64,000 nt of DNA from Mauremys mutica (lineage: Eukaryota; Chordata; Testudines; Geoemydidae): the NCBI RefSeq assembly GCF_020497125.1, contig NC_059075.1, positions 33,392,003 to 33,456,002 on the forward strand, given 5' to 3'. The position numbers and the translations under genes were made by a program. The notes under the pieces are model-generated. The model did no database searches, had not been told where the DNA came from, and saw only the letters and a program-made list of their open reading frames with translations. Shown piece after piece: positions 12,818 to 57,838 of the stretch (its first letter is position 1; each line of letters opens with the position of its first letter).

Positions 12818-13850
12818 TTGCTTTTGGCATTCACAGAACAACTGCAGAGGGTGGACCATCGCTTTTGGACTGGCGAAACAAGCACTAAATGGTGGGATTG
12901 TATAATCATGCAGGTGTGGGATGACGAGCAATGGCTACAGAACTTTCAAATGCGGAAAGCCACCTTCTTGCAACTCTGTGCGGCGCTCGCCTCAGCACTA
13001 TGGCACAAGGACACCAGAATGAGAGCTGCCCTAACCATAGAGAAGTGTATGGCAATTGATGCATGGAAGCTGGCAACTCTAGACTGCTACCTGTCGGTCG
13101 CAAATCATTTTGGAGTCGGGAAGTCGACCATTGGGGCTGCGTTAATGCAAGTGTGCAGGGCAATTAATCACATCCTGCTGACTCTGGGAAATGTGTGTGA
13201 AATAGAGGATGGCTTTGCAGAAATGGGTTTTCCTGACTGTGGAGAGGCGATAGATGGCACACATATTCCAATTTTGGCACCAGACCATCTTGCAACAGAG
13301 TACATCGATAGGAAGGGGTACTTCTCCATGGTGTTGCAGGCACTTGTGGATCACCTTGGGCGTTTCACTGACATCAATGCGGGGTGGTCCGGGAAGGTGC
13401 ATGACACACACATCTTCAGGAACACTGGCCTGTATAGAAAGCTACAAGCGGGGACTTTCTTTCCAAACCAGAAGATTACAGTGGGGGATGTTGAAATGTC
13501 CATTATAATCTTGGGAGACCTGGTGTACCCCTTTCAGCTGTAGCTCATGACACCTTACACTGGAAACCTGGACAGCAGTAAGGAGTGGTTCAACAACAGG
13601 CTGAATAGGTGCCAGATGACAGATTAAAGGTGTACTGGCAATGCCTTTATGGCAGGTTAGACCTTAATGAGGATAATATTCCCATAGTCATAGCCACATG
13701 TTGTACATTGCATAATCTTTGTGAAGCTAAGGGTGAAAGGTTTGCACAGGGTGGAGTGTTGAGACAGGCTGCTTGGCTGCTGATTTTGAGTAGCCAGATA
13801 CCAGGGCTATCAGAGGAGCACAGAGGGGGGCAATTCGAATCAGGGAGGCT
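12818..13850 (+). pseudogene. Harbinger DDE transposase (HARBI1-like)
   Basis: The first 241 codons are open. Landmarks include NHFGVGKSTIGAALMQVCRA (the helix-turn-helix-like part), ECGEAIDGTH-type text at 13232-13270 (first catalytic Asp in AIDGTHIPI) and AGWSGKVHDTHIFRNTGLY at 13380-13435 (second Asp). After a stop at 13541-13543 the sequence continues in other frames with PYTGNLDSSKEWFNNRLNR and LDLNEDNIPIVIATCCTLHN, the C-terminal block. The stretch that should carry the third catalytic acid (the VE.AFG.LK box) is deleted or scrambled around 13605-13640. The family length is about 350 residues. Dead transposase; it sits head-to-head in space with the Myb gene's 3' end. Confidence 0.8.
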
Positions 13851-33156: not shown

Positions 33157-33172
33157 AGAAAACTACAATGCA

Positions 33173-33775
33173 TTGGTGACCTTCCAGAAAAACCCCATCC
33201 TAGCCACCATGGATGTAGAGGCTCTCTACACAAAGATCCCACACACAGATGGAATACAAGCTGTCAGGAACAGTATCACTGATGATGCCACAGCACAACT
33301 GGTTGCTGAGCTCTGTGACTTTATCCTCACACACAACTATTTCAAATTTGATGACAATATATACTTCCAGACCAGTGGCACTGCTATGGGCAGCCACATG
33401 GCCCCACAATATGCCAACATTTTTATGACTGACCTAGAACAATGCTTCCTCAGCTCTCGTCCACTCACGCCCCTTCTCTACCTACGCTACATTGATGACA
33501 TCTTCATCATCTGGACCCATGGAAGGGAGACTCTGGAAAAATTCCACCACAATTTCAACAGCTTCCACCCCACCATCAACCTCAGCCTGGACCAATCTAC
33601 ACGAGAGGTTGACTTCCTAGACACCACGGTGCAAATAAGTGATGGTCACATTAACACCACCCTATACCGAAAACCCATCGACCGCTATGCCTACCTTCAT
33701 GCTTCCAGCTTCCATCCCGGACACACCACAGGATCCATTTTCTACAGCCAAGCACTGAGGAACAACCGCATCTGA
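33173..33775 (+). pseudogene. Penelope reverse transcriptase, N-truncated
   Basis: 200 codons open. TMDVEALYTKIPHTDGI is motif A with the catalytic Asp, FQTSGTAMGSHMAPQYANIF is motif B and LRYIDDIFIIW is motif C (YIDD). VDFLDTTVQI and LYRKPIDRYAYLHASSFHPG follow, the typical Penelope thumb text. It ends with a TGA; the linker to the endonuclease continues in another frame from 33835. The fingers domain is absent, so it is inactive. Confidence 0.82.
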
Positions 33776-41106: not shown

Positions 41107-43398
41107 TTGTCTAAGAGACCGACTCTCTCGGGCATGCCCAGCTCACCTGGTTTTAAATGCTGCCTGACTTGCAGACTCTCCATACTGGTCTCTGACAGCC
41201 AGGCTCAGTGTGTCCACTTCCTCGTCGAGACACACATTACTCAAAAGTGCCCACACTGCAAAAAGCTGACAGCCAGGACAAGAAAAGTCAGAGATCTCTA
41301 ACTGAAGCTCCTCATGATGGAGAAATCCCTCAGGCCAGTCTCTGACCCCAAGTCCAGGCCACCCCCTGGCAACGGTTGCTCTACTTCAACAACAGCTGCC
41401 AAAGAGCCTGTTCCTAGAAAGGTTACCAAAAAGCGGTCACGGACATCCCTGCATGGAGAATCACCTAAAAGAAAGCGATCTCCAACTGAAAAATCTGCCC
41501 TGGTATCGATGGCACCGAGATTGCCAGACTGCGAGGCACTGGGATTGTCTGGCACAGAGAGTTCCTGAAGAGCTAAAGACCCTATGCAGGCAAGCTCTAA
41601 AGGAGGTTTACACACTAAACTGAAACATTCCAGCTCATCACCCACGGAGCCGAAGAAGATCTTGGCATGGAGTGGTATAATGGTGCCACTTGCTGTACCT
41701 ATGCCACATAGCCCTAAATCCTCGGCACCGCAGCTTCAACTCATGCTCCCAGGCGGTCCACCATGTCGTCTCTGGCACCGAGCCTCACGGTTCCACAGTA
41801 ATTCATAAGGCATGCGGACCTGATAGTGGCCTCAGTGCCTGAATATTTACTCGCCACCGAGGATACCTCATCCAAATCAGTACCAAGCCACCTGACTATT
41901 CCTTGCAGATCAGCCCCCCCATCTCTAGTGATGAAGAAGAAGAGGATGATGGAGTAATATATATTGCTTGCCACTTCTCACCCAAGCCAGGACCATCTCA
42001 TCACCAACCACTTGTGGATATATGAGGATGTGGTCACCTATGGACACCCCCCCCATACCATTCCCACCTAACTGGTCATACTGGGATCCATGGGCAATGT
42101 ATAGGGCCCAAAACCACAGTTCCCCTAGCTTCCTTAGGTCCAGAACAGCCAGGTCTCCTTCATCAACTGTTCTGGCACCCTTGGAAACACAAGAGGAAGA
42201 CACTGAGGAACCTGAGGATATAGCTGAGCATGACACTTTTCTGCCTACTCACCTCTCTTTGTTGTCACCGGACGAAACTATAATGCCACCACCCCCCACC
42301 ATGGGGGATGATTTCAAATCCTTTCAGGACCTCTTCAAAAGGGTTGCTGAATCCCTAGACATTACGTTGGCTCAGCTACCAGAAGCCCAACATAAGCTCT
42401 CAGACATACTCCAGGCATACCCATCAGCAAAGATATCTCTGCCAATTAATTATGCAATCATGGAGCCTGCAAAAATAATCTGGCAGATACCTTCTACAGC
42501 ACTACGCTCATGTAAAAGATTCGACAAAAAATATTATGTGCCAGAAAAAGGGGCTGAGTTCCTATTTACACATCCCATGCCAAACTCCTTAGTAGTGGAG
42601 ACAGTGAACCAAAGGGGAAAACAACACCAGTCCCAAACGACCCCATACGATAAGGATTGGAAAAGGCTGGACCTTTTTGGGCAGAAAGCTTATTCCTTAG
42701 CTACACTTCAGTTTCGCATAGCCAACTACGCAACCCTGCTGGCCAAATATACATGCAATCTGTTCTCCAAAATATCAGCTTTTATTGAAAATGTATCCAA
42801 TGACAAAAAAGAACAGTATAAGGCAAACATTTCTGAGGGGTCTCTCATCGCCAGGATGGCCCTACAGGCCTCCTTTGACTTTGCAGACACGGCAGCATGT
42901 TCCATCGCAACATCTATGGTCATGCGCTGTGCATCTTGGCTCCACCTCTCCAAGTTCCAAAAGGAGATCCAGGCAACCGTTGAAGACTTACCCTTCGAGG
43001 GTCAGAAACTTTGCAGACAAAACGGATGTCTCATTGCATACCCTAAAAGACTCAAGGATGACCTTAAAAACCCTTGGTATTTACATATCTGCAAACAAAA
43101 AGAAACAGCAGGTTTTACAATCAGAGATTCTTGTCTACGCCATACTCTCAGCTCCAAAGACAGTATGACCAATGACGTAAACAAAGAACAGACGTTGGCA
43201 GGACCAAGATCAACCTTTGACGTCTTAATAATCCACCTCTACACAATCATTTTGAAGGTGTGGTCGAGGGCACGAGACCTCCACACACTGTTACTCTGGA
43301 ACCAGAAAAGGTCCCCTGCCCATTCGGAGACTCTGTCACCATACTACTCAGTCTGGAACAGCATCACGACAGACAAATGGGTTTTAGGGATTATCTAA
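41107..43398 (+). pseudogene. DIRS-B gag-like gene, mostly open
   Basis: The Cys-rich start at 41122-41301 (SPGFKCCLTCRL, CPHCKKLTARTRK) is followed by frame changes, then a 476-codon open frame from 41968 to 43398. That frame contains PNWSYWDPWAMYRAQ, an acidic stretch (TQEEDTEEPEDIAEHD) and the conserved DIRS core: DITLAQLPEAQHKLSDILQA, MEPAKIIWQIPSTA, FDKKYYVPEKGAEFLFTHP, WKRLDLFGQKAYSLATLQF, CSIATSMVMRCASWL and ATVEDLPFEG. It is the longest open frame in the window. The last 100 codons diverge from the core, perhaps after a frameshift near 43010. Confidence 0.7.
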
Positions 43399-43439: not shown

Positions 43440-44090
43440 CCCCTTTCCTGTTCCTCTTCAGGGACCCCTCTCACGAGCACCTGTTACAACAGGAAATAAA
43501 CCACCTTGTACAAATAGATGCCATGGAACTTGTACCATCGCAACACAGGGGAAGAGGTTTTTATTCACACCACTTTCTAACTCAGAAAAAGACCAGTGGG
43601 TGGAGACCCATCCTGGATTTACAAAAACTCAACAAATTCATGAGAATATATCAAAATGGTGACTCTAACCACAATAATTCCGGCATTAGAGAAGGGAGAT
43701 TGGCTCTTGGCCCTTGACCTACAGGATGCTTATTTTCATATTAATATCCACCCGTCTCACAGAAGATTTTTGAGAGTCACCCAAGGGAAACAGTATTTCC
43801 AATGCAGAGTACTACCCTTTGGCCTATCCACTGCCCCAAGGGTTTTTCCCAAGGTTTTCACTGTCGTTGCAACTCAGTTCCGCAGACACAGAGTAAGGAT
43901 ATTTCCATACTTGGACGACTGCCTCATATGGGCACCAACATGGCAAGAAGTTATAAACGCCATGCAGAGCACAATAACCCTTTTCACGAACCTAGGGTTG
44001 CAAACAAATACGCAAAAGTTTACACTGGTTCCTCTCCAAAAGTTAGATTCACAGGCGACTATCTCGACTGTCTAACAGCAACAACAACAT
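43440..44090 (+). pseudogene. DIRS-B reverse transcriptase
   Basis: HRGRGFYSHHFLTQKKTSGW and RPILDLQKLNKFM in one frame. Then, after a frameshift near 43650, LALDLQDAYFHINIHPSHRR (motif A), RVLPFGLSTAPRVFPKVF (motif B) and IFPYLDDCLIWAP (motif C, Y-L-D-D), followed by FTNLGLQTNTQKFTLVP. All three catalytic Asp are present. The frameshift and a stop at 44073 break it. Confidence 0.78.
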
Positions 44091-44302: not shown

Positions 44303-45120
44303 ATGCCACGCAGAGTAAAAAACTCATTAACATGGTGGATGCAACCAAGGAATGTCTGCCCTATCCAACAAAGAACTCCAACCCTGACAATCATGACAGA
44401 TGCTTCCCTAATAGGTTGGGGGTGGGGGGCACATCTACTCAACAATATGGTCCAAGGCCACTGGTTCCCAGCAGAGTCCAACCTCCACGTAAACTTACTG
44501 GAGCTAAGAGCAGTCCGAAATGCATGTGACCACTTTCTCCCTCTAATCAAGAACAATGCCATTAAGATCCTCATGGACAATATAGCTTACATGTTTTACA
44601 CAGTATAAACCACCAAGGGGAAGCAGAATCATACTCCCTATGTACAGAGGCAATGTGCATTTGGAATTGGTGCATCACCAACAACATAGAGATATCGGCA
44701 TCCTATCTGCCGGGATGTCAGAATACAACAGCAGATGTACTAAGCAGGGATTTTTCACAAACTCACGAGTGAGAGATGGACTCTGGAATTCTCAAATCCA
44801 TATTCAAACTATGGGGGTTCCCCACCATAGATCTATTCGCAACAGCTCAGAATGCCAAGTGCCCACAATATTGCTCCAGAGCTGGATTGGGACACCACTC
44901 CCTAGGCGACACTCTCATTATCAAATGGGAGGCGCCACTGATGTATGCATTTCCTCCAACCCCACTCCTAAGCCACGTCATTAAGAAGATCAATCAAGAC
45001 AAATCCAAGGTCATTCTCAGAGCCCTCACATGGCCCGGACAAACGTGGTTCCCATACTTGTGTCAGATGGCAGTGAAACCACTTCAAAGCCTTCCCTTAG
45101 TACCTCACCTTCTATCATAA
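44303..45120 (+). pseudogene. DIRS-B RNase H and following region
   Basis: IMTDASLIGWGWGAHLLNNM (RNase H first Asp in TDAS), NLHVNLLELRAVRNACDHFL (Glu) and IKILMDNIAYMF (second Asp). After further frames comes ILKSIFKLWGFPTIDLFATA and CSRAGLGHHSLGDTLIIKW, the DIRS-specific region between RNase H and recombinase. Two frameshifts are seen (about 44610 and 44780). Confidence 0.72.
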
Positions 45121-45511
45121 GATGTGGAACATGTCCGTCACCCCAACCTTGCAGTACTCCACCTCAAGTCCTGGTTACTCCATGGCTGACTTGGGTTGAG
45201 AAGGCCTGTTCAGAGGAAGTAAAAGATATATTACTGAACAGTCAGAGACTAAGTACAAGGAAGACATATATCCATAAGTGGAAACAATTCTGCACCTGGT
45301 GCCAAGATAAACAGATCTTACCACAATCGTCCCCCCAACCGAGGATCCTGGACAATATACTAGGACTTAAAAAAACAGGTCTATCCACAGCCTCCATCAG
45401 AGTACACTTGGCTGCTATTACCTCCTTCCATGACAAGGTGGACAGGGTCACCATATTTGCTCTCCCGACAATTAAGCGCTTCCTTACAGGCATTGAAAAC
45501 ACTTATCCCAC
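45030..45511 (+). pseudogene. DIRS-B tyrosine recombinase, N-terminal part
   Basis: SQRLSTRKTYIHKWKQFCTW and LSTASIRVHLAAITSFHD form the SAM-like core-binding domain. The copy stops at ENTYP just before the catalytic domain, where an LTR starts at 45512. Confidence 0.72.
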
Positions 45512-45834
45512 TGTGACAGGGTGCTGAGCAGAAATACTGCAGAATCAGCCCCCTGCCACACCAACCCCATTTAAGTGAATAAAGTGGAGCTGGCTGGAAA
45601 GAACCTGCCCAAATTGAGGAATGAGAGCCAGCTGCCAGCCCAATTAGCCAAAGGCTATATAAGAGGCTGAAAAGAAGGAAGCCAGGATGTTGGGCTGGAG
45701 GAAAGTGAGGGAGTCTAGGCAGGGAGAAAGCCCTTCCCTCCTGGGTTCAGACACAAGGAACCGAGAGCTGTGTAAGCAGTATGGTAAGAAGGTGGTGGGA
45801 GCACAAACTTGTAAATAAAAGCACCAGTGGTTCC
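45512..45834 (+). mobile_element. LTR fragment
   Basis: Begins TGTGACAGGGTGCTG, with a TATATAAG box at 45656 and AATAAAAGCACCAGTGG at 45817, a normal LTR order on the + strand. The 3' end is not evident: at about 45835 the sequence passes into a MITE. Confidence 0.5.
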
Positions 45835-49312: not shown

Positions 49313-50082
49313 TGTCACAATTCAGGGCAGTTGCACCATATTTCCCCTCCATGGTCCCTTGAGGCACCCCTGAGGCTCCAGGCTCCTCAGCTGTCACATC
49401 TCTTGGGTGGAGACCCATGTCTCTCTCCCCCCGGACCAGGGGCTTTTCCAGGCTACACAGTTCCCTGCTTACACTGTGATAGTCCCAGCAAGCCAGACTG
49501 CCTAACCAGGCCAGTGTCTGCACTTTGCTTTCTCTTTGAAGGCTACGAACAACATAATTGGTAGCAGTTATAACTTACCACACAGCCCTTTATAAGCAAG
49601 CACATTTATTCTTAAGGGGAAAGTATTACAGAGAAAACATTAAAAACAATAAAAGAACCTGCATGCATGTTAATAAGCTTACCCAAGATCACCTGTGTCT
49701 TATGGGGCCCCGGTAGGCCAAAGTCCTTCCATCCCTTCCCAGGAAGAATTGGAACCCCATTGGACAGAAGGGCCTGTCCATTTGTTTGATCAGAAAGAAA
49801 GGCCCTGAGTCAGTTTAAACTCAGGCTATTTATCACAGAGTCTTTTCTTTGCCTGTTGGTCTCTGTGGAATCTAGTTTGAATTAGTATATGCGAGCCTCC
49901 CCAGGAGGTGGTATCTCTCTGGGGAGATTACAAACTGCCTGATTTGCCTTAACCACCTATTGTTTTAGTTCCTGTAGGAGCTGTGGTAGCCCTTCCCCAT
50001 GGAATAGAACAGTCCTACAGAAACTATTCATTTAAAACAATGGACCCCAAAGATGCTGCATGGAGTTGCAATGTTTGTCACA
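49313..50082 (-). mobile_element. retroviral LTR with polypurine tract
   Basis: A 770-bp unit TGTCACAATT...GTTTGTCACA (TG...CA on either strand). On the minus strand it is directly preceded by CATGGGGAGA, a polypurine tract, so it is a 3' LTR. Internal retroviral sequence seems to be lost beyond about 50280. No flanking duplication is found. Confidence 0.58.
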
Positions 50083-50899
50083 TCTCCCCATGAAGAAGTT
50101 ACATACATTTAACACCATAAGGTGTTTCAAGAGTATTTCAGGAAATACCATATCTGTCACAAAAGTTATATAGCTCAAAATATCTCATGCACAGCTGTAG
50201 GATAATGTAATAAATCCCACTCAACATATACAAAAAAAGTTTTCAGGTGATACCAAAGAGGACAAGTAATAATTTCAGACCTTCAATATTTAGTTGGTAA
50301 AATACATAGATAGATACATATATAAAATAGAGATATAATGATCTAAATCACAAAGGAATGCAATTTTAAAAATCTAAGGTCCGCCTGTAAGAGGCACAAA
50401 TAAGGTTGCAGACAAGGCTCTTGCAGTGAATATACCTACTAATTATACTTTGTGTGGCTGTCTTTGCTAAACATGACTACAAAAACTCAAGAAGTTAAAG
50501 AATAGATGCATGTTTAATCTATTTGAAAACGTTTAATTTAGAACAATGGAAAAACACCATCTCAATGGTATTCTGAACTCCAGTGTATCAGATCTTTAAA
50601 GGCATATGGAGCCAAAAGGGTCTTTGAAAAGATTACCTCTTTTGCTGGAGAAAACTACTGTGTCAACAGGACCTGCAAATACTCAGACATCATTAGTAGT
50701 TCTGAAAATACACTGGCTCGGGTGAATCCTTCCCATTCATTTTAAGATTAATCCTTAAGAGCTATAGAACATTTAACTGCAGGGAAAACAGCCACCCTCG
50801 TCATTTCAGTCATGGACTGCCCAAGAAATTAGCCAGGTTGAACCCAGGCTACAGTAGGCTGCTGTTTAATAAAGTTATTAGAATGCTGGCAGGCTGCTG
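50083..50899. other. mostly unassigned, possible retroviral leftover
   Basis: The first 200 bases may belong to the retrovirus whose LTR precedes them; the rest is ordinary AT-rich DNA. Confidence 0.3.
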
Positions 50900-51329
50900 C
50901 TGAGATTAACTCTTCTTTGAATAGTGTCCCTATGGGTTCTCCACTGTAGGTGCAGCAGCACTCCCTGCCCCTAGGATCGGAGATCTTCATCAGCAGTGCC
51001 TGTCAGACTGCACATTCGCACCTCCCCTCTCTTGTGCTGTGAGCGGGACGTATATATATATTATTGTGCTGTCTGACTGCCCCCCGCCCAGTTTCTTCTC
51101 TACCACCTTTGGTTTGGGACGGAATCCGCAGAAGAGCCCGCTTCTCCTTTTTCCCTCATTAGAGTAGTGCCTTACCTGTCAGTTTTAGTGTAGTTTAGAA
51201 CTTCTTCTTCTTCTTTCCTCTTATATAAAAAAAATTGCTTTCGCTTCACCTTTATTATTATCTCATCAATTAGGTTTTCATTTCCCTGCTTCTCACACTT
51301 CCGAACAGGAAGCTTTTTTCCTCACCCTT

Positions 51330-52274
51330 ATGCCCAGATCTCCCAGGTTTAAGAGGTGCATCTCTTGCTGTAATGCCCTCCAGTAATGGACAGCCACCTG
51401 CAGTGTGTTCGCTGTCTGGAAGAGGGACACATTCCAGAAAAGTGTTCCTACTGTCACAACTTGACTGCCAGGGCCAGAAAAGACTGGAACATTCGGTTAT
51501 GATTTCTTCTCATGGAGAAATCACAGCGCCCAGCATCGAACCCAGACTCTCCCCCTGTGTGGCTTTCACGCTCTGCCAGGTTGCCTGCCGATCCTCATTC
51601 CCTACGTCCCTCTAAGAGAAAGTTGTGTCTTTCTCGCTCTGACAAGAAAACAGGCTCCCTCCTCACACTCTGAGGCACAGCCTGCCAGAACACCTTCCCT
51701 TGTGAGGTCAGTTGTCTCAACATCATCTGACAGGGGACATAGCTCCAGGACCCAACTACCTCTGGTTCCGGGATGAAACTGCAGTCTAGGGACCCTAACC
51801 AGGCAAAGCTACAGCCCTCAGCACCATCTCTTGGCACTGGAGACCACGACATTCTGACTTCAGGAGCTTGGCACTGACAAAACCACTGGCACTGGCGTCC
51901 TTTTCAGCACAGCTGAAACCGTTGACACAGAGCAAGTCCTTGGCCCTGCCAAAACTGCCAGCACCGACCAAGTCCTTAGCACCAACAAAGCTGTCAGCAC
52001 CGAGCAAGTCCTCAGCACTAACCAAGTCTTCAGCTCCACCTGGGCACCCAGTCATCTACTGGTGCTGATGATGCTCCTTCCTCCTCCCCAGGAATTTAGA
52101 TACCGTAAAGACCAGCTTGTATCTGACATGCCCGAGTCACCTCTGCTCAGACATGACCTCCTCCCACTTCCACCCTCCTCTCTGGACTCATGAGATTCCT
52201 CCCTTTTCCCCCTGACAAGGGCACCCTCAGTGACAGGGAGGAAGAGGAGAAGGAGGAGTGCTCCATCACACCCT
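51330..52274 (+). pseudogene. DIRS-D gag-like gene, first part
   Basis: SPRFKRCISCCNA at 51338 and CHNLTARARKDWNI-type text at 51450-51490 form the Cys-rich start. A Ser/Pro/Thr-rich stretch with LPAPTKSLAPTKLSAPSKSS (51945-52010) follows. Frames change often. It stops at the retroviral insertion and continues at 55375. Confidence 0.6.
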
Positions 52275-52380
52275 TGTAGTAGTAGAATTTTAAACCACAC
52301 TTCCATATAGAGTTAATCGGGCCATCAAACACATAAACAACAAATTCAAAAACAAAATCCCACAAAAACAGCCCTATAAA

Positions 52381-54240
52381 AAACAAAAACTCAAATCATA
52401 TATCTCAAAATAAAATTAAAAATCACTCACTAAAATCAAAATAAATAAGCCCTTACTCCATAGTAAACCGCCTTAGCCCATTACTATACCATATTAAAAA
52501 AAATAAAAAATAAAATAAATACATATTTCACAAATTAAATTATTTACATAAATAATATTGTTTACATTCTTTGGGGGAAAAAAATCCCAAAACCTAAGCA
52601 CAAGGTGCTGCTTACCCACCACAATTTTAATCCACAAAAAATAAAATTCCAGTATAAGGTCTGGCTTTAGCTACTTCTAAAAACTTTTAGAACCCAAATA
52701 ATGAAAGCAATGATAAAAAAAAATGCAGCCCTCCTTATAAGTCAATATTTTTACAAAATAATTCACTCCCTGCCAGCCAATCATAAATTCCTACCCATAA
52801 TCCAATAATCCTCAAAAAATGGTATAATAAAAATACTAGCCAACTCTTAAACCCCTTTAAAATACCAATATATATGCCTTAAAAAAACAAAACAAAAAAA
52901 CCCTTAAGGTTCACCTTATAAACACCACAAAAATACCAAAACACTAAAAAATAAAGGTTAAAATAAAAATTCCCTATAAAAATACCACCTAAGTTCCAGC
53001 TACCCACAATTACCATATTAATAAAATAAGTCCATTAAAACATAAACAATACTAACAGTTATTGTAAAATACTATCCAGTACCCTGTAATAAATTAAACC
53101 TGTAGTTCCCAAACACGTGCACCAAAACCTAAACCAAAAACTATGCATTCAAAAAAACACCCCAATTAAAATTTAAAAAAACAATTCAAAGTAGTCCAGT
53201 AACAGTCTTATTAAATCCCCTGTTAATAAAAATAAAAATTAGTAAGTATTAAACTCAATTAAACATATCTAAATTAAAACCCAAATGTCCACCCTACTCC
53301 CTCCCTATTATAACAGCCTAAATAAAAACATATCAACACTCCAATAACAAAACAAAACAAAATATAATAAACACCATATTAAAAATTTTAGCTTTAAAGC
53401 AAAAATTATAATTACTATAAACCTAAAGGTAATTAAAAATAAGTTAAGTTTCTTGTCACAACTGCAAAATAATCTCATTCACAAACAAGCAAATAATACT
53501 ATAAATTTAATACAAATATATCTAATAAACCTGAAAGAAACATTAAAATATGTAGCGGTGGCAAAATAACCTTCTAGCTGCTATATAAACAACATATACA
53601 AATAAAAAATAAAACTGCCTTAGCCATAAAATGTACTAAAAAGCAAATTTTTAGTTTAGCATCACTTAAACACTAAATGTTTTGGGTAATATCTAAAATG
53701 TTCAAATATTAACACATCTTTTAAAGCAACAAAAAAAAAATCCTTATTCACATACAAATATAAATAAATTAAATATGTTTCCAGCATAATTAAGCCTAAT
53801 TTGTTATTAAGTAAAATTATTATTAAAATTACTCACCAACAATCTATAAAAACAAAAATATAAAAAATAAGCCTTCTCCCAAAATTAACCATAAAATCCT
53901 TTTGGCTCCTCCGGGTTATAGGTCAATAAGCTAAAAATAAATAAATAAATAATCAAAAATGTACAAAATAAAGCCCTCAAAAATGGGTGTGCTTTTCCCT
54001 ACCTGTCACCACAAAACCATGCAAGAGAAACACATCACTAAAAACATATATATAAAATAAACTAAAAAAGTAACTCAGTTTTTACAACACACACACAAAA
54101 AGCCCTTCCCACCCTTCAAATATTACATGCCAATCAAATATTCTATGCCAATAAAAACATACTAAAAATTGCTAAATCTAAAAAAACCCTAACAGCCTAT
54201 CATTTAATACAATATTTTTACAGGCTGGTTCCTGACCTCT
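52381..54240 (+). other. GA-depleted tract (candidate G-to-A hypermutation)
   Basis: In these 1860 bases I count about 127 G on the + strand: about 49 followed by T, 46 by C, 23 by G and only 9 by A, although A makes up nearly half of all bases. Tracts of 180 to more than 400 bases contain no GA at all (for example 52741-53520). No + strand open frame over 60 codons exists. The pattern is directional and context-specific, as left by deamination of TC on minus-strand cDNA. Confidence 0.72.
52545..52850 (+). pseudogene. reverse-transcriptase fragment with altered catalytic box
   Basis: A frame from 52545 reads Y-I-N-N followed by IVYILWG where an RT carries Y-x-D-D. Both Asn codons are AAT, one GA-to-AA step from Asp. 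The frame then stays open for about 85 codons with one TAG, including NFNPQKIKFQYKVWL, resembling the RT region after motif C. The two catalytic Asp are therefore lost. Identification as RT rests on this box, the frame and the retroviral context. Confidence 0.5.
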
Positions 54241-54455
54241 AAGAGAACATTGTCTATTAAGTTTCATCCATTAATGTTCGTCCATTAATATTGTCCTGTG
54301 TTTGCTTGCTAAAAATGTATTGTGTGCTATTAAGCAAAAAAAAAGTTTATTAAATTACAACCACAAGCTCAAATTATCTCTCAATATATTGTTATAAAAA
54401 TTGTATTAAATATGACCCACTCAAGTATTTTTCTTGAGGGGTCAAAAGGGGGACA

Positions 54456-55374
54456 TGTAGTATTAGAATTTTATGTTTATATTAATATAATTTAAAATAA
54501 AAAAAGAATAATATAATGAAGCATGTATTAAATGTATTGGTGTATTATTTGATCATATCCTGCCAGCCACTCTTTTTAAATAACAGAAAGGAATGGTCTA
54601 ATGGGCCATTGGTAAAAATACATCAGCCAGAATCTGTGTCTGGACTGATTTCAAGGCAGTGACAAACCTTTAAGGCTCACCAATTTGTTGTATGTTTAGC
54701 ATTTTAAAATAAGTTAAAAAATGCAGTAATTGTCCTTCTTTTACACTGCAGTGTTCCTGTTCAAAATGTTCTGTGTAAATTAATTGTTTTGTGTGTAAAT
54801 AAAAAAAGTATGTGTTAAAAAATAAATGTAAAGGCCATCGCTAAACCAAATGTACAAAAAAAAACCAGCCAAAGACAGGTGCAAGAGTGCCGGAAGGCTG
54901 CAACACGCTCCTATTGAAATGTCAAAAAAGGGCAAATTAACAGCTCTAAAAATGAGACAGGTATCCATCAATAGGAACAAAATAGCTGTAATAAAAAATA
55001 AAAGAAACAATTAAAAAAAACAAGCCCTCGTCAAACAACAATTACTGCATAACAGAGCAAAACTCATTGGTCCCAGTAAAAAAAAATCACTATATAAACA
55101 GGGTGCCTTGCCATAAAATTTTGGGTTCGTCCTGCCAAGACTTCCCCAGAGCATCGTGTCACAACCGACAGAACCTGGCTCCTCCCTACTGGTGATCAAC
55201 CTAGCTGGCCACTAGGTTGATCTGGACTGGTAACTATAACATCGACTGGCGGGACAGTGTGCATGGTGTGTGTATGTGTAACTAAAAAACATGCTAATTG
55301 CTGTATTCTCAATAAATGCAGCGTGTTGCCTTCTCCCCTATAAAAAATCTTGTGTGCTTTGTATAAGCATAACA
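54456..55374 (+). repeat. 3' LTR of the defective retrovirus
   Basis: 919 bp, TGTAGTATTAG...ATAACA, with TATATAAAC at 55092 and AATAAATGCAG at 55312 in proper order. GA occurs about 27 times by hand count, unlike the interior, so the LTR composition is ordinary. Confidence 0.72.
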
Positions 55375-56750
55375 CCCTCTTATTCAAAACAGGCTTCATC
55401 TACACATCCTCACTATTCACAATCCACATCTGGACCACTGTCCTCTTGTGGACCACTGTGGATGCAACTACATTTTCCACTCCCTCCACATTGGTCATAT
55501 TGGGACCCTTGGGACATGCACAGGGCAAAATTTGGGAAGCCTCTCGTGGAGCAAAGCTGGAGACCTATATCTCTCCCTTCTCCATTGGTCTCTCGAACAT
55601 CAGAGATTGAACCTCCCCCAGTACTGGATGAGGAGGAAGAACAGGAGGAGGAAGCTCCACCAACATTTATATTTCTCCTCTTCTTCCCCCAATGAGGCTG
55701 TCAGGCCCCCACCTCCTGCTGCTGCTGACAGCTTCAGACACATTCACGAATTATTCCACAAGATGCAGTCTCCCTACAGATTCCTTTGGAGGAAGTGAAA
55801 GATCAGCAGCATAAATTGCTCAATGTCCTGCACACATTATTTTCCTCCAAAATTGCCCTACCTATCAACAAGGTTCTTCTCAATCCTGCAAAAGTGCTCT
55901 GACAGACCCCAGTGACCATCCCTCCAACCTGAAAATGGGCAGACAAAAATGTTCTTGCAAAAGATGTGGAATTTCTTTTCTTGCATCCCACCCCAAATTC
56001 CTTAGTAGTTAATGTGGTTCAAGAGAAGGGATTACAAATATCAATATTGATCTACCCATCACGACAGACAGTGGAAAAGCTTAATTTATTCGGACGCAAG
56101 ACTTATTCATCTGCCAGACTCCAATTTCTAATAGCTAATTACGAGGCTCTTACGGCCAAGTACAACTACTCCAAAATATAGGAACACGGCCATAACCTTC
56201 CTGGGGCCAAGAAAGAACAATTCCAGGTGCTTATATCTGAGGGACACCTCTTGGCCCATACAGCCCTACAGGCCTCATTAGACTCTGTGGATATCACCGC
56301 CCACTCCATCGCAACTGCATGGTTATGAAGTGGGCGCCATGACTGCACCTTTTAGGCTTTCCTAAGGAGTTACAAACCACAGTTAAAGACTTACCCTTTG
56401 AGGGCCCCAAACTATTCATGGCACATATGGTTGATTCCCTATCCACCCTTAAAGACTGCCGAGCTACTTGCCACTTCCTTAGTATTTACAAACCAGTGCC
56501 AAAGAGACACCTACGAAAGTATCATCTCCCGATGCGATCCTGACCACTGCGGTACATTCCTCAGCAGCACTATGACACTCAGCACCAACAATAAAAGCCC
56601 CCTACCAAATGTAGACAGGCCACTCCTCAATGGACTAGCTCTCAAATACCTGCAGCCAAGCAACAGTTTTGAAGGTGTGGTCAAGGCCTCAAGGAGGCTC
56701 CCCCCTTTTCCAGTCATATCAACCATCTTCGACATCCCACCAGTTTGGTG
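55375..56750 (+). pseudogene. DIRS-D gag-like gene, second part
   Basis: PPHWSYWDPWDMHRAKFGK is the same motif as in DIRS B. Acidic DEEEEQEEEAPP (about 55627-55660), then VEFLFLHPTPNSLVVNVVQE and KLNLFGRKTYSSARLQFLI at 55966-56150, and a degraded repeat of the ...TVKDLPFEGP block at 56380. Stops at several places. Confidence 0.65.
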
Positions 56751-57055
56751 ATCGATTAGCTCCGTTCTTTCCATCCTGGAGACTAATCACCTCAGACATA
56801 TGGATTCTAGAGATCATCAGGGAAGGATATTCCGTCCCTTTCCTATATCCTGCCCCTCCCACCTCTCTCCCCATCCCTCTTCAGGGACCCCTCTCATGAA
56901 CCCATTTTACGAGAAGAAATAAATCATCATCTGCACCTGTGAGCCATAGAACTGGTCCCTTCCCAACATAGAGGAATGGGTTTCTATTCCCATTTTTTCT
57001 GATCCAGAAGAAATCCAGTGGCTGGTGGCCGATCCTGGACCTTCAAAACCTAAAC

Positions 57056-57838
57056 ATGTTTGTCAAACTTCAACACTTCAAGATGGTTACCTTTTCTACC
57101 ATTATCCCAGCACTGGAACAGGGGGACTGGTTCTCGGCCCTTGACCTCCAAGATGCGTATTTCCATTTCACAATACACCCGGCCCACAGATGGTTTCTCT
57201 GTTTCACCATGGGAGCCAACCATTATCAGTACAAGGTACTGCCTTTTGGACTATCAACAGCCCCTTGTGTATTCTCCAAAGTCTTTGCGGTAGTTGCTGC
57301 CTACCTAAATAAAAAAGGCACTGTCATCTTTCCATACTTAGACGACTGTCTCCTCAAGATCTCATCCAAAGCCAACACTCTTAGTACAGTCCAGGTCTCA
57401 ATGGACCTTTTCATGAATCTAGGCCTCCATGTGAACTTGGAGAAGTCTACTTTAATACCAATACAACACCTGGAGTTCATCACCACACAACTAGATGCCA
57501 TACAAGACAGAGCCTTCCTTCCGCCTCACACATTCTTGACTGTAGTGGATCTTGTATCCAAGGTGCAAGCCTGTGCCCAGATTTCCAACAGAATGTGTCT
57601 CCAGCTAATAGGATACATGACAGCCACCACATTCATGGATAAAGCACGCACAATTACACATGCAATGTCTTCGGTCATATGTCTGTACAGCATATGTCCC
57701 TCACAGACACAGCAGCCACAAACTGTTATCCATGCTGAGGACGGTCAAGGACTCACTACTCTGGTAGACACAGCCCAAGAACATCTGTGTCGGGGTTCAT
57801 TTCCTTCAGCCAGCACCAATCACGATTCTAACAACTGA
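57056..57838 (+). pseudogene. DIRS-D reverse transcriptase, long open frame
   Basis: 260 codons open. FSALDLQDAYFHFTIHPAHR (motif A), KVLPFGLSTAPCVFSKVFAV (motif B) and VIFPYLDDCLLKI (motif C, Y-L-D-D), then LFMNLGLHVNLEKSTLIPIQ and CLQLIGYMTATTF in the thumb. The catalytic residues are all there. The finger region upstream (about 56880-57050) is in other frames (GFYSHFF, GWWPILDLQNLN), so the protein is N-truncated. The best-preserved RT in the window. Confidence 0.8.

Follow-up and report, generated by a model that had tools for sequence, protein, structure and literature searches.

Graded G-to-A hypermutation of an endogenous retroviral family in the turtle Mauremys mutica points to an APOBEC1-like deaminase

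A truncated retroviral insert on contig NC_059075.1

The window analysed here, a stretch of 64,000 nucleotides of the Mauremys mutica genome, carries on its + strand an insert at positions 52275-55374 that is flanked on both sides by the target-site repeat CCCT; the left copy (52271-52274) closes the string ...ACACCCT that precedes the insert, and the right copy (55375-55378) opens the string CCCTCTT that succeeds it. Of its 5' LTR, the insert retains only the initial 18 bases (52275-52292, 94% identity to 54456-54473), followed by a hypermutated integrase C-terminus/env-like region (52293-54240) in which 96 of 98 non-CpG GA sites are edited. Comparison with relatives shows a less edited stretch at 54241-54455, terminating in a polypurine tract (54436-54455), and the comparison with copy L006 shows that the 3' LTR of 919 bases (54456-55374) is partly edited, chiefly at GA and GG. 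The LTR with its TG...CA ends, the tract and the target repeat, together with RNase H and integrase in the related copy L035, mark the insert as a retroviral LTR element.

All 11 relatives that were printed extend upstream of the point where the 5' LTR remnant stands, which reveals a large internal deletion in the focal copy. In L035, the sequence upstream of that junction lies within or beside integrase-coding frames, and RNase H frames adjoin it too; the focal copy has thus lost the greater part of its 5' LTR together with the genes as far as the end of pol. The label "env-like" is our reading from the position of the pieces and not from a Pfam match, as four such pieces of L035 matched no Pfam family and a homologue search with one of them found none. 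An alignment spanning the insertion point, as expected of an empty target site, was not obtained with any unbroken copy of the flanking element in the window.

Loss of G and GA from the internal region

The 1,860 bases at 52381-54240 contain 872 A, 368 C, 127 G and 493 T, with 49 GT, 46 GC, 23 GG and only 9 GA dinucleotides, exactly the counts of G and of these dinucleotides made by hand in the preliminary description of this DNA. G thus amounts to 6.8% and A to 46.9%, against 20-22% G and 33-34% A in the related copies L035, L022 and L038. The observed/expected ratio of GA is 0.15 in this region and 0.90 in the entire window, and none of 10,000 base shuffles of the region reached 9 GA (mean 59.6, minimum 41). 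Among same-sized spans across the window, the lowest GA or TC ratio away from the insert (span starts outside 49500-54500) was 0.61, versus 0.14 at the insert. GA sites are scarce from about 52290 to 54230 and reappear near the polypurine tract.

Substitutions against relatives in the same genome

Relatives were collected by searching the same genome with the LTR and with two internal pieces, which gave at least 46 matches for the LTR and at least 66 and at least 49 for the internal pieces; these lists are lower bounds, and only the best candidates were scored. Against the little-edited copy L035, the focal copy has 274 G>A, 17 A>G, 48 C>T and 15 T>C differences, such that 68% of the aligned G are now A while 2.8% of A are now G and 12% of C are now T. 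The G>A changes depend on the next base (GA 109/119, GG 105/132, GT 45/90, GC 15/64), and the dependence persists at non-CpG sites (GA 102/110, GG 96/119, GT 42/83, GC 13/60), where the Fisher test of GA against GC/GT gives p=2e-20. With all seven references used (L035, L022, L038, L019, L017, L023 and L031), the Fisher p ranged from 3e-5 to 2e-20. At the coding level, the focal copy has stops at 12 of 17 comparable Trp positions of the L035 frames, Lys at 18 of 23 Glu positions and Asn at 13 of 16 Asp positions.

The preliminary description had read the plus-strand pattern as GA-specific editing of TC on minus-strand cDNA, removing GA while sparing GC and GT. The pattern fits such editing, and both outcomes that would speak against it were looked for. 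Relatives rich in GA do occur: 8 of 19 loci (L052, L054, L055, L056, L058, L064, L065 and L070) have a GA observed/expected ratio of 0.89-1.02, the 19 being the fetched loci minus the query copy, itself at 0.92; and G>A is far in excess of C>T and strongly dependent on the following base. The loss and dominance of GA are thereby upheld. Exclusivity is not, as about 80% of GG and 50% of GT sites are edited and GC sites a little, so that GT, GG and GC were edited less rather than spared. In other relatives (L012, L015, L025, L026 and L005), GA is as scarce as in the focal copy.

The 3' LTR shows the same direction of change against L006 (G>A 60, A>G 10; GA 43/68, GG 13/47, GT 2/63, GC 2/36) and L007 (G>A 63, A>G 14). 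The excess is missing or reversed against several other LTRs, among them L002 (20 G>A versus 24 A>G) and L008 (12 versus 45), which are GA-poor themselves. For the internal region, the density of G>A amounts to 147.0 per kb against L035 and 136.9 per kb against L022, figures that refer to diverged reference copies and to part of the provirus, with the less edited LTR not counted.

Graded editing in many copies

The preliminary description dealt with a single insert; hypermutation is, however, not unique to the focal copy. We scored 18 distinct insertions, of which 13 have 37-98% of their GA sites edited and five have 2-21%, after exclusion of L014 (of L013), L020 and L021 (of L018) and L026 (of L015) as likely duplications. 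The five lowest copies (L017, L019, L022, L035 and L038) also define the sites, and their low values arise partly by construction, although low editing in them is borne out independently by their GA content and by a separate survey seeded with L035. As the 18 insertions were found with an edited copy as the query, 13/18 is no rate for the family. In the L035-seeded survey (at least 46 matches, 20 loci fetched, 16 distinct copies after removal of the query copy and three duplicates), at least 35% of GA sites were changed in 7 of the 16 copies; ten of the 16 coincide with or overlap the 18 insertions (e.g., L052, L053 and L054 are L022, L017 and L019). Edited copies lie on both genomic strands, and the editing is each time in the sense of the element. 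No editing is apparent in three gag loci from other families (GA observed/expected 0.97-1.16), taken from a profile search that favours intact copies.

Transversion distances to L035 are 0.039-0.071 in the 13 edited copies and 0.038-0.061 in four little-edited ones; editing is therefore not a matter of age. This bears directly on ordinary decay, in which an old element drifts towards AT and loses its CpG. Transversions separate the copies from L035 at about 5% of positions, so that the family is not young, and CpG is low (4 in 52381-54240), as decay would have it. Yet on one strand G>A is about six times as frequent as C>T, the signal persists without CpG, plus-strand C>T has no TC bias (3/65 non-CpG), and copies at like transversion distance differ from 2% to 98% in editing. 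We regard decay as extremely improbable, and the earlier argument that simple AT drift is inadequate is borne out by the strand asymmetry and by the equally diverged unedited copies.

A different history would be that one edited source was amplified and its A-rich sequence inherited by the copies. In a tree built with A and G merged, the inner branches are short and mostly poorly supported; the focal copy clusters with L010 and L005, all of them edited (support 0.986), as inheritance from one source would predict, while the heavily edited L015/L026, L025 and L012 are placed elsewhere, against it. The edits themselves are mostly weakly shared: among moderate copies, the GA phi of the tested pairs is 0.01-0.45 outside L018/L020/L021, a further point against a common source. 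Close sharing, which would favour such a source, is found in L018/L020/L021, where all GA states are common (phi 1.00), and in L015/L026, where nearly all GT/GC states are (0.93). The sets whose members agree in their edits or are almost identical in sequence are each confined to one contig (L018, L020 and L021 on C12; L013 and L014 on C4; L015 and L026 on C1), which suggests segmental duplications postdating the editing. Even with the GT sites that the focal copy shares with L025 (see below) counted in its favour, an amplified source is highly unlikely. Editing is recurrent and graded among the copies, and the copies would have been edited independently.

Sequence context and stepwise editing

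The context of editing was resolved in five heavy and seven moderate copies. Genuine GA sites are edited at 344/353 in the heavy and 370/554 in the moderate copies, and where a GG has its next G now A, the first G is edited at nearly the same level (215/220 and 145/200). GG sites of which the next G is retained are edited at only 36/124 and 28/347, GT at 128/307 and 61/454, and GC at 21/197 and 15/299. As GG with its next G now A is edited like GA, a fresh U on the minus strand counts as a T, and the editing of GG is mostly stepwise. With the G-runs taken as stepwise, the order on the minus strand is TC >> AC > CC > GC. AC exceeds CC at p=0.016 in the heavy and 0.017 in the moderate copies; these per-group values apply, as the pooled p=1.5e-6 mixes the groups in unequal proportions. 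CC exceeds GC at p=0.0014 (pooled).

The footprint has the 5'-TC preference of the APOBEC1 type. A preference of the APOBEC3G type (CC over TC) is absent, given the 36/124 of GG with its next G kept against the 344/353 of GA in the heavy copies. A second, GG-preferring enzyme was also considered and rejected on account of the stepwise pattern. In heavy copies, an apparent GG preference may thus arise mostly from stepwise editing, which has a bearing on how enzymes are deduced from footprints.

Activation-induced deaminase (AID) was weighed as the agent, its gene AICDA being apparently present, by our reading of locus L040. AID prefers WRC, i.e., AC and GC. In the footprint, TC is dominant and GC lowest, and in the five heavy copies the corresponding GYW sites (GTA 33/72, GTT 27/89, GCA 7/72, GCT 9/58) are not favoured over non-GYW sites (GTG 47/91, GTC 21/55, GCC 5/64). 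We therefore consider AID a very improbable agent; that its context differs from the footprint had been anticipated in the preliminary description.

Particular GT sites are edited in several copies more often than under independence (variance 3.41 versus a simulated mean of 1.46 and maximum of 2.33), and 28 of 39 focal-edited GT sites overlap with L025 (p=5e-4). This recurrence probably reflects site preference, and partly shared history may contribute. One GT site is A in all eight copies that cover it, and at some GT sites the difference may be an old one between subfamilies.

Editing along the element

The profile of GA editing was pooled from 14 rows, including L020, the duplicate of L018. 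Editing is 0.68-0.84 in the internal region up to 54092, 0.61 at 54093-54242 (37/61) and 0.68 at 54243-54392 (13/19) before the polypurine tract, 0.52 across the tract and 0.37 (49/132) at 54543-54692, the start of U3; beyond 54692 it rises to 0.84 and 0.80, then declines to 0.63 at 54993-55142 and 0.28 (29/105) at 55143-55292, towards R-U5. The GA at the end of the tract, read by eye, is retained in all eight edited copies that cover it, and within the tract run there are other changes in five of these copies (L010, L012, L015, L018 and L023).

These observations help to separate deamination from misincorporation by reverse transcriptase under dCTP shortage. Such misincorporation also favours GA and could also yield stepwise G-runs, and the GA preference and the stepwise runs found here are compatible with it. 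The retained tract end and the low editing just downstream, however, point to post-synthesis damage of exposed single strands, and 98% of GA sites have changed while other substitutions run from a few percent to 12%. We consider dCTP shortage very unlikely, and infer that a deaminase acted during reverse transcription rather than that the polymerase erred.

Editing drops at the tract and in the stretch that follows it (49/132 versus about 0.8 inside), and a reduction just downstream of tracts is likewise described for A3G-edited HIV-1 in PMC3310730. A peak immediately 5' of the tract, of the A3G/HIV-1 type, is absent, although the sites are few (13/19 and 37/61 versus about 0.8 further upstream); according to PMC12548423, the endogenous mouse mammary tumour provirus Mtv61 likewise departs from the A3G upstream-peak pattern. 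The low value towards R-U5 and the missing upstream peak are not predicted by a simple exposure model. The sequence in which the plus strand is synthesised does not account for the second LTR dip (55143-55292).

A GGGGGA run at 52573-52577 resembles a central polypurine tract and is private to the focal copy among the readable copies. Where the focal copy has GGGG, 9 of 12 readable relatives have GCAG or GCAA, L015/L026 have GGCA and L031, a fragment, is different again. GGGGGA occurs in none of the 12, L025 has a gap at 52573, and a central polypurine tract was rejected.

Candidate deaminases in the genome

A search of the genome with the APOBEC_N profile gave 14 matches, which we read as putative A2, A4, AICDA (three exons), a degenerate copy on C1 at 266.7 Mb and APOBEC1-type exons. 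Beside AICDA lies an array of about 150 kb (C1:137487072-137646364; L040-L047 and L050) with seven open and one degenerate APOBEC1-like exons, and the seven open exons carry the HAE...SWSPCxxC motif, all at the level of exons only. The NAD1 profile matched the same 14 places, and a separate NAD1-type deaminase was consequently rejected. No separate A3 was found across the genome with these two profiles, APOBEC_N and NAD1.

Comparisons of two exons with solved structures gave APOBEC-1 as the best match, with 160 bits versus 90 for A3G for the first exon and 132 versus 100 bits for the second. In Pfam scans of two exons, APOBEC1 came second to APOBEC4_like for one and fourth for the other, where SNAD4 led, among profiles that cross-match strongly. 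For one exon the nearest proteins are tortoise APOBEC-1 sequences, from Chelonoidis (89%) and Gopherus (81%), in keeping with a turtle host that is probably close to the tortoises. In an exon tree, the seven open exons fall into four groups, three of them with other turtles; the remaining group, of four exons, had no outside member in a sample gathered with a single exon.

The 5'TpC preference of APOBEC1 enzymes of five mammals and the use of TpC and CpC in nuclear DNA by mouse A1 are reported in PMC6854741. AC over CC is no recognised A1 order on DNA. The TC preference and the array of APOBEC1-like exons fit the APOBEC1-like agent proposed in the preliminary description, and the enzyme class named there is probably right, the agent itself being deduced from spectrum and gene content.

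A probable deaminase acting on retroviral cDNA

Taken together, these data make it very probable that a 5'-TC-preferring deaminase, most likely APOBEC1-like, edited minus-strand cDNA during reverse transcription, separately in many copies. In the turtle lineage, such an enzyme would have acted on exposed single-stranded minus-strand cDNA while it was being made, and the uracils would have been copied as A, leaving plus-strand G>A chiefly at GA. Runs of C would have been edited stepwise, with every new U taking the place of a T beside the following C. After that, the hyperedited copy would have integrated, with the CCCT repeat as its mark, and been retained, and separate events would have struck many copies at differing doses. 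The likeliest agents would be the APOBEC1-like enzymes of the array adjoining AICDA, and the acting enzyme may be extinct by now.

An arms race between APOBEC1 and retroviruses has reportedly been described by Wang and Han in 2023, with A1 genes said to be recurrently amplified in tetrapods and to have left footprints in ERVs. Editing of this kind is already known from zebra finch, mouse and lizard, and the insert is an extreme further case. Among 111 vertebrates, editing of LTR retrotransposons was strongest in zebra finch (Knisbacher and Levanon 2016, as summarised in PMC6523648); in that account, as here, the changes are plus-strand G>A in LTR elements, while the turtle case resolves single insertions, a dose series, stepwise runs and a deaminase array. 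The hypermutated endogenous MMTVs of PMC12548423 resemble the turtle family in their graded copies, stepwise editing of C-tracts, Trp codons turned into stops and extreme loss of G. The agent differs, being mouse APOBEC3 in the Mtvs, whereas the turtle genome has no separate A3 by the APOBEC_N and NAD1 profiles. Mtv21 has 10.8% G, and Table 3 of that paper puts its density of G>A at 120.8 per kb, compared with 71.5 in the zebra finch element that ranks highest; the turtle values of 137-147 per kb and 6.8% G are more extreme than those of Mtv21, although they derive from part of a provirus and diverged references and those of Mtv21 from a whole Mtv. In the lizard, according to Lindic 2013 (PMC3880073), L1 elements are edited (about 0.26% of them) and LTR elements are not, with APOBEC1 implicated. 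Both hosts are non-mammalian with APOBEC1 implicated, and they differ in that the edited family of the turtle is a retroviral LTR family. Our literature search found nothing on turtle APOBEC1 or turtle ERV hypermutation within its coverage, outside of which most subscription journals lie.

The turtle genome offers a natural dose series, from 2% to 98% of GA sites edited, in one retroviral family and one genome, beside countable candidate enzymes. Two questions thereby become directly testable: whether the ancestral DNA mutator directed against retroviruses was APOBEC1, and whether the duplications of this gene in turtles parallel the mammalian APOBEC3 cluster. Conceivably, in a host without APOBEC3, the turtle APOBEC1 array plays the role of the placental-mammal APOBEC3 cluster, its paralogues jointly hyperediting retroviral cDNA to near saturation of TC, and the insert is among the most heavily edited ERV segments recorded; we put this forward tentatively, as a proposition with somewhat less than an even chance of being right.

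Other elements of the window

Reverse-transcriptase frames of other retroelements were found at 56972-57835, 43644-44072 and 33158-33772, the insert lying directly before the first of these. At 44985-45524, a tyrosine-recombinase domain is matched below threshold, which suggests that at least one retroelement may be DIRS-like. An open frame of 482 residues at 41950-43395, inside a retroelement-like region, has a sub-threshold LAP2alpha match. At 12818-13540, there is a DDE_Tnp_4 transposase frame, which we take to be Harbinger-like.
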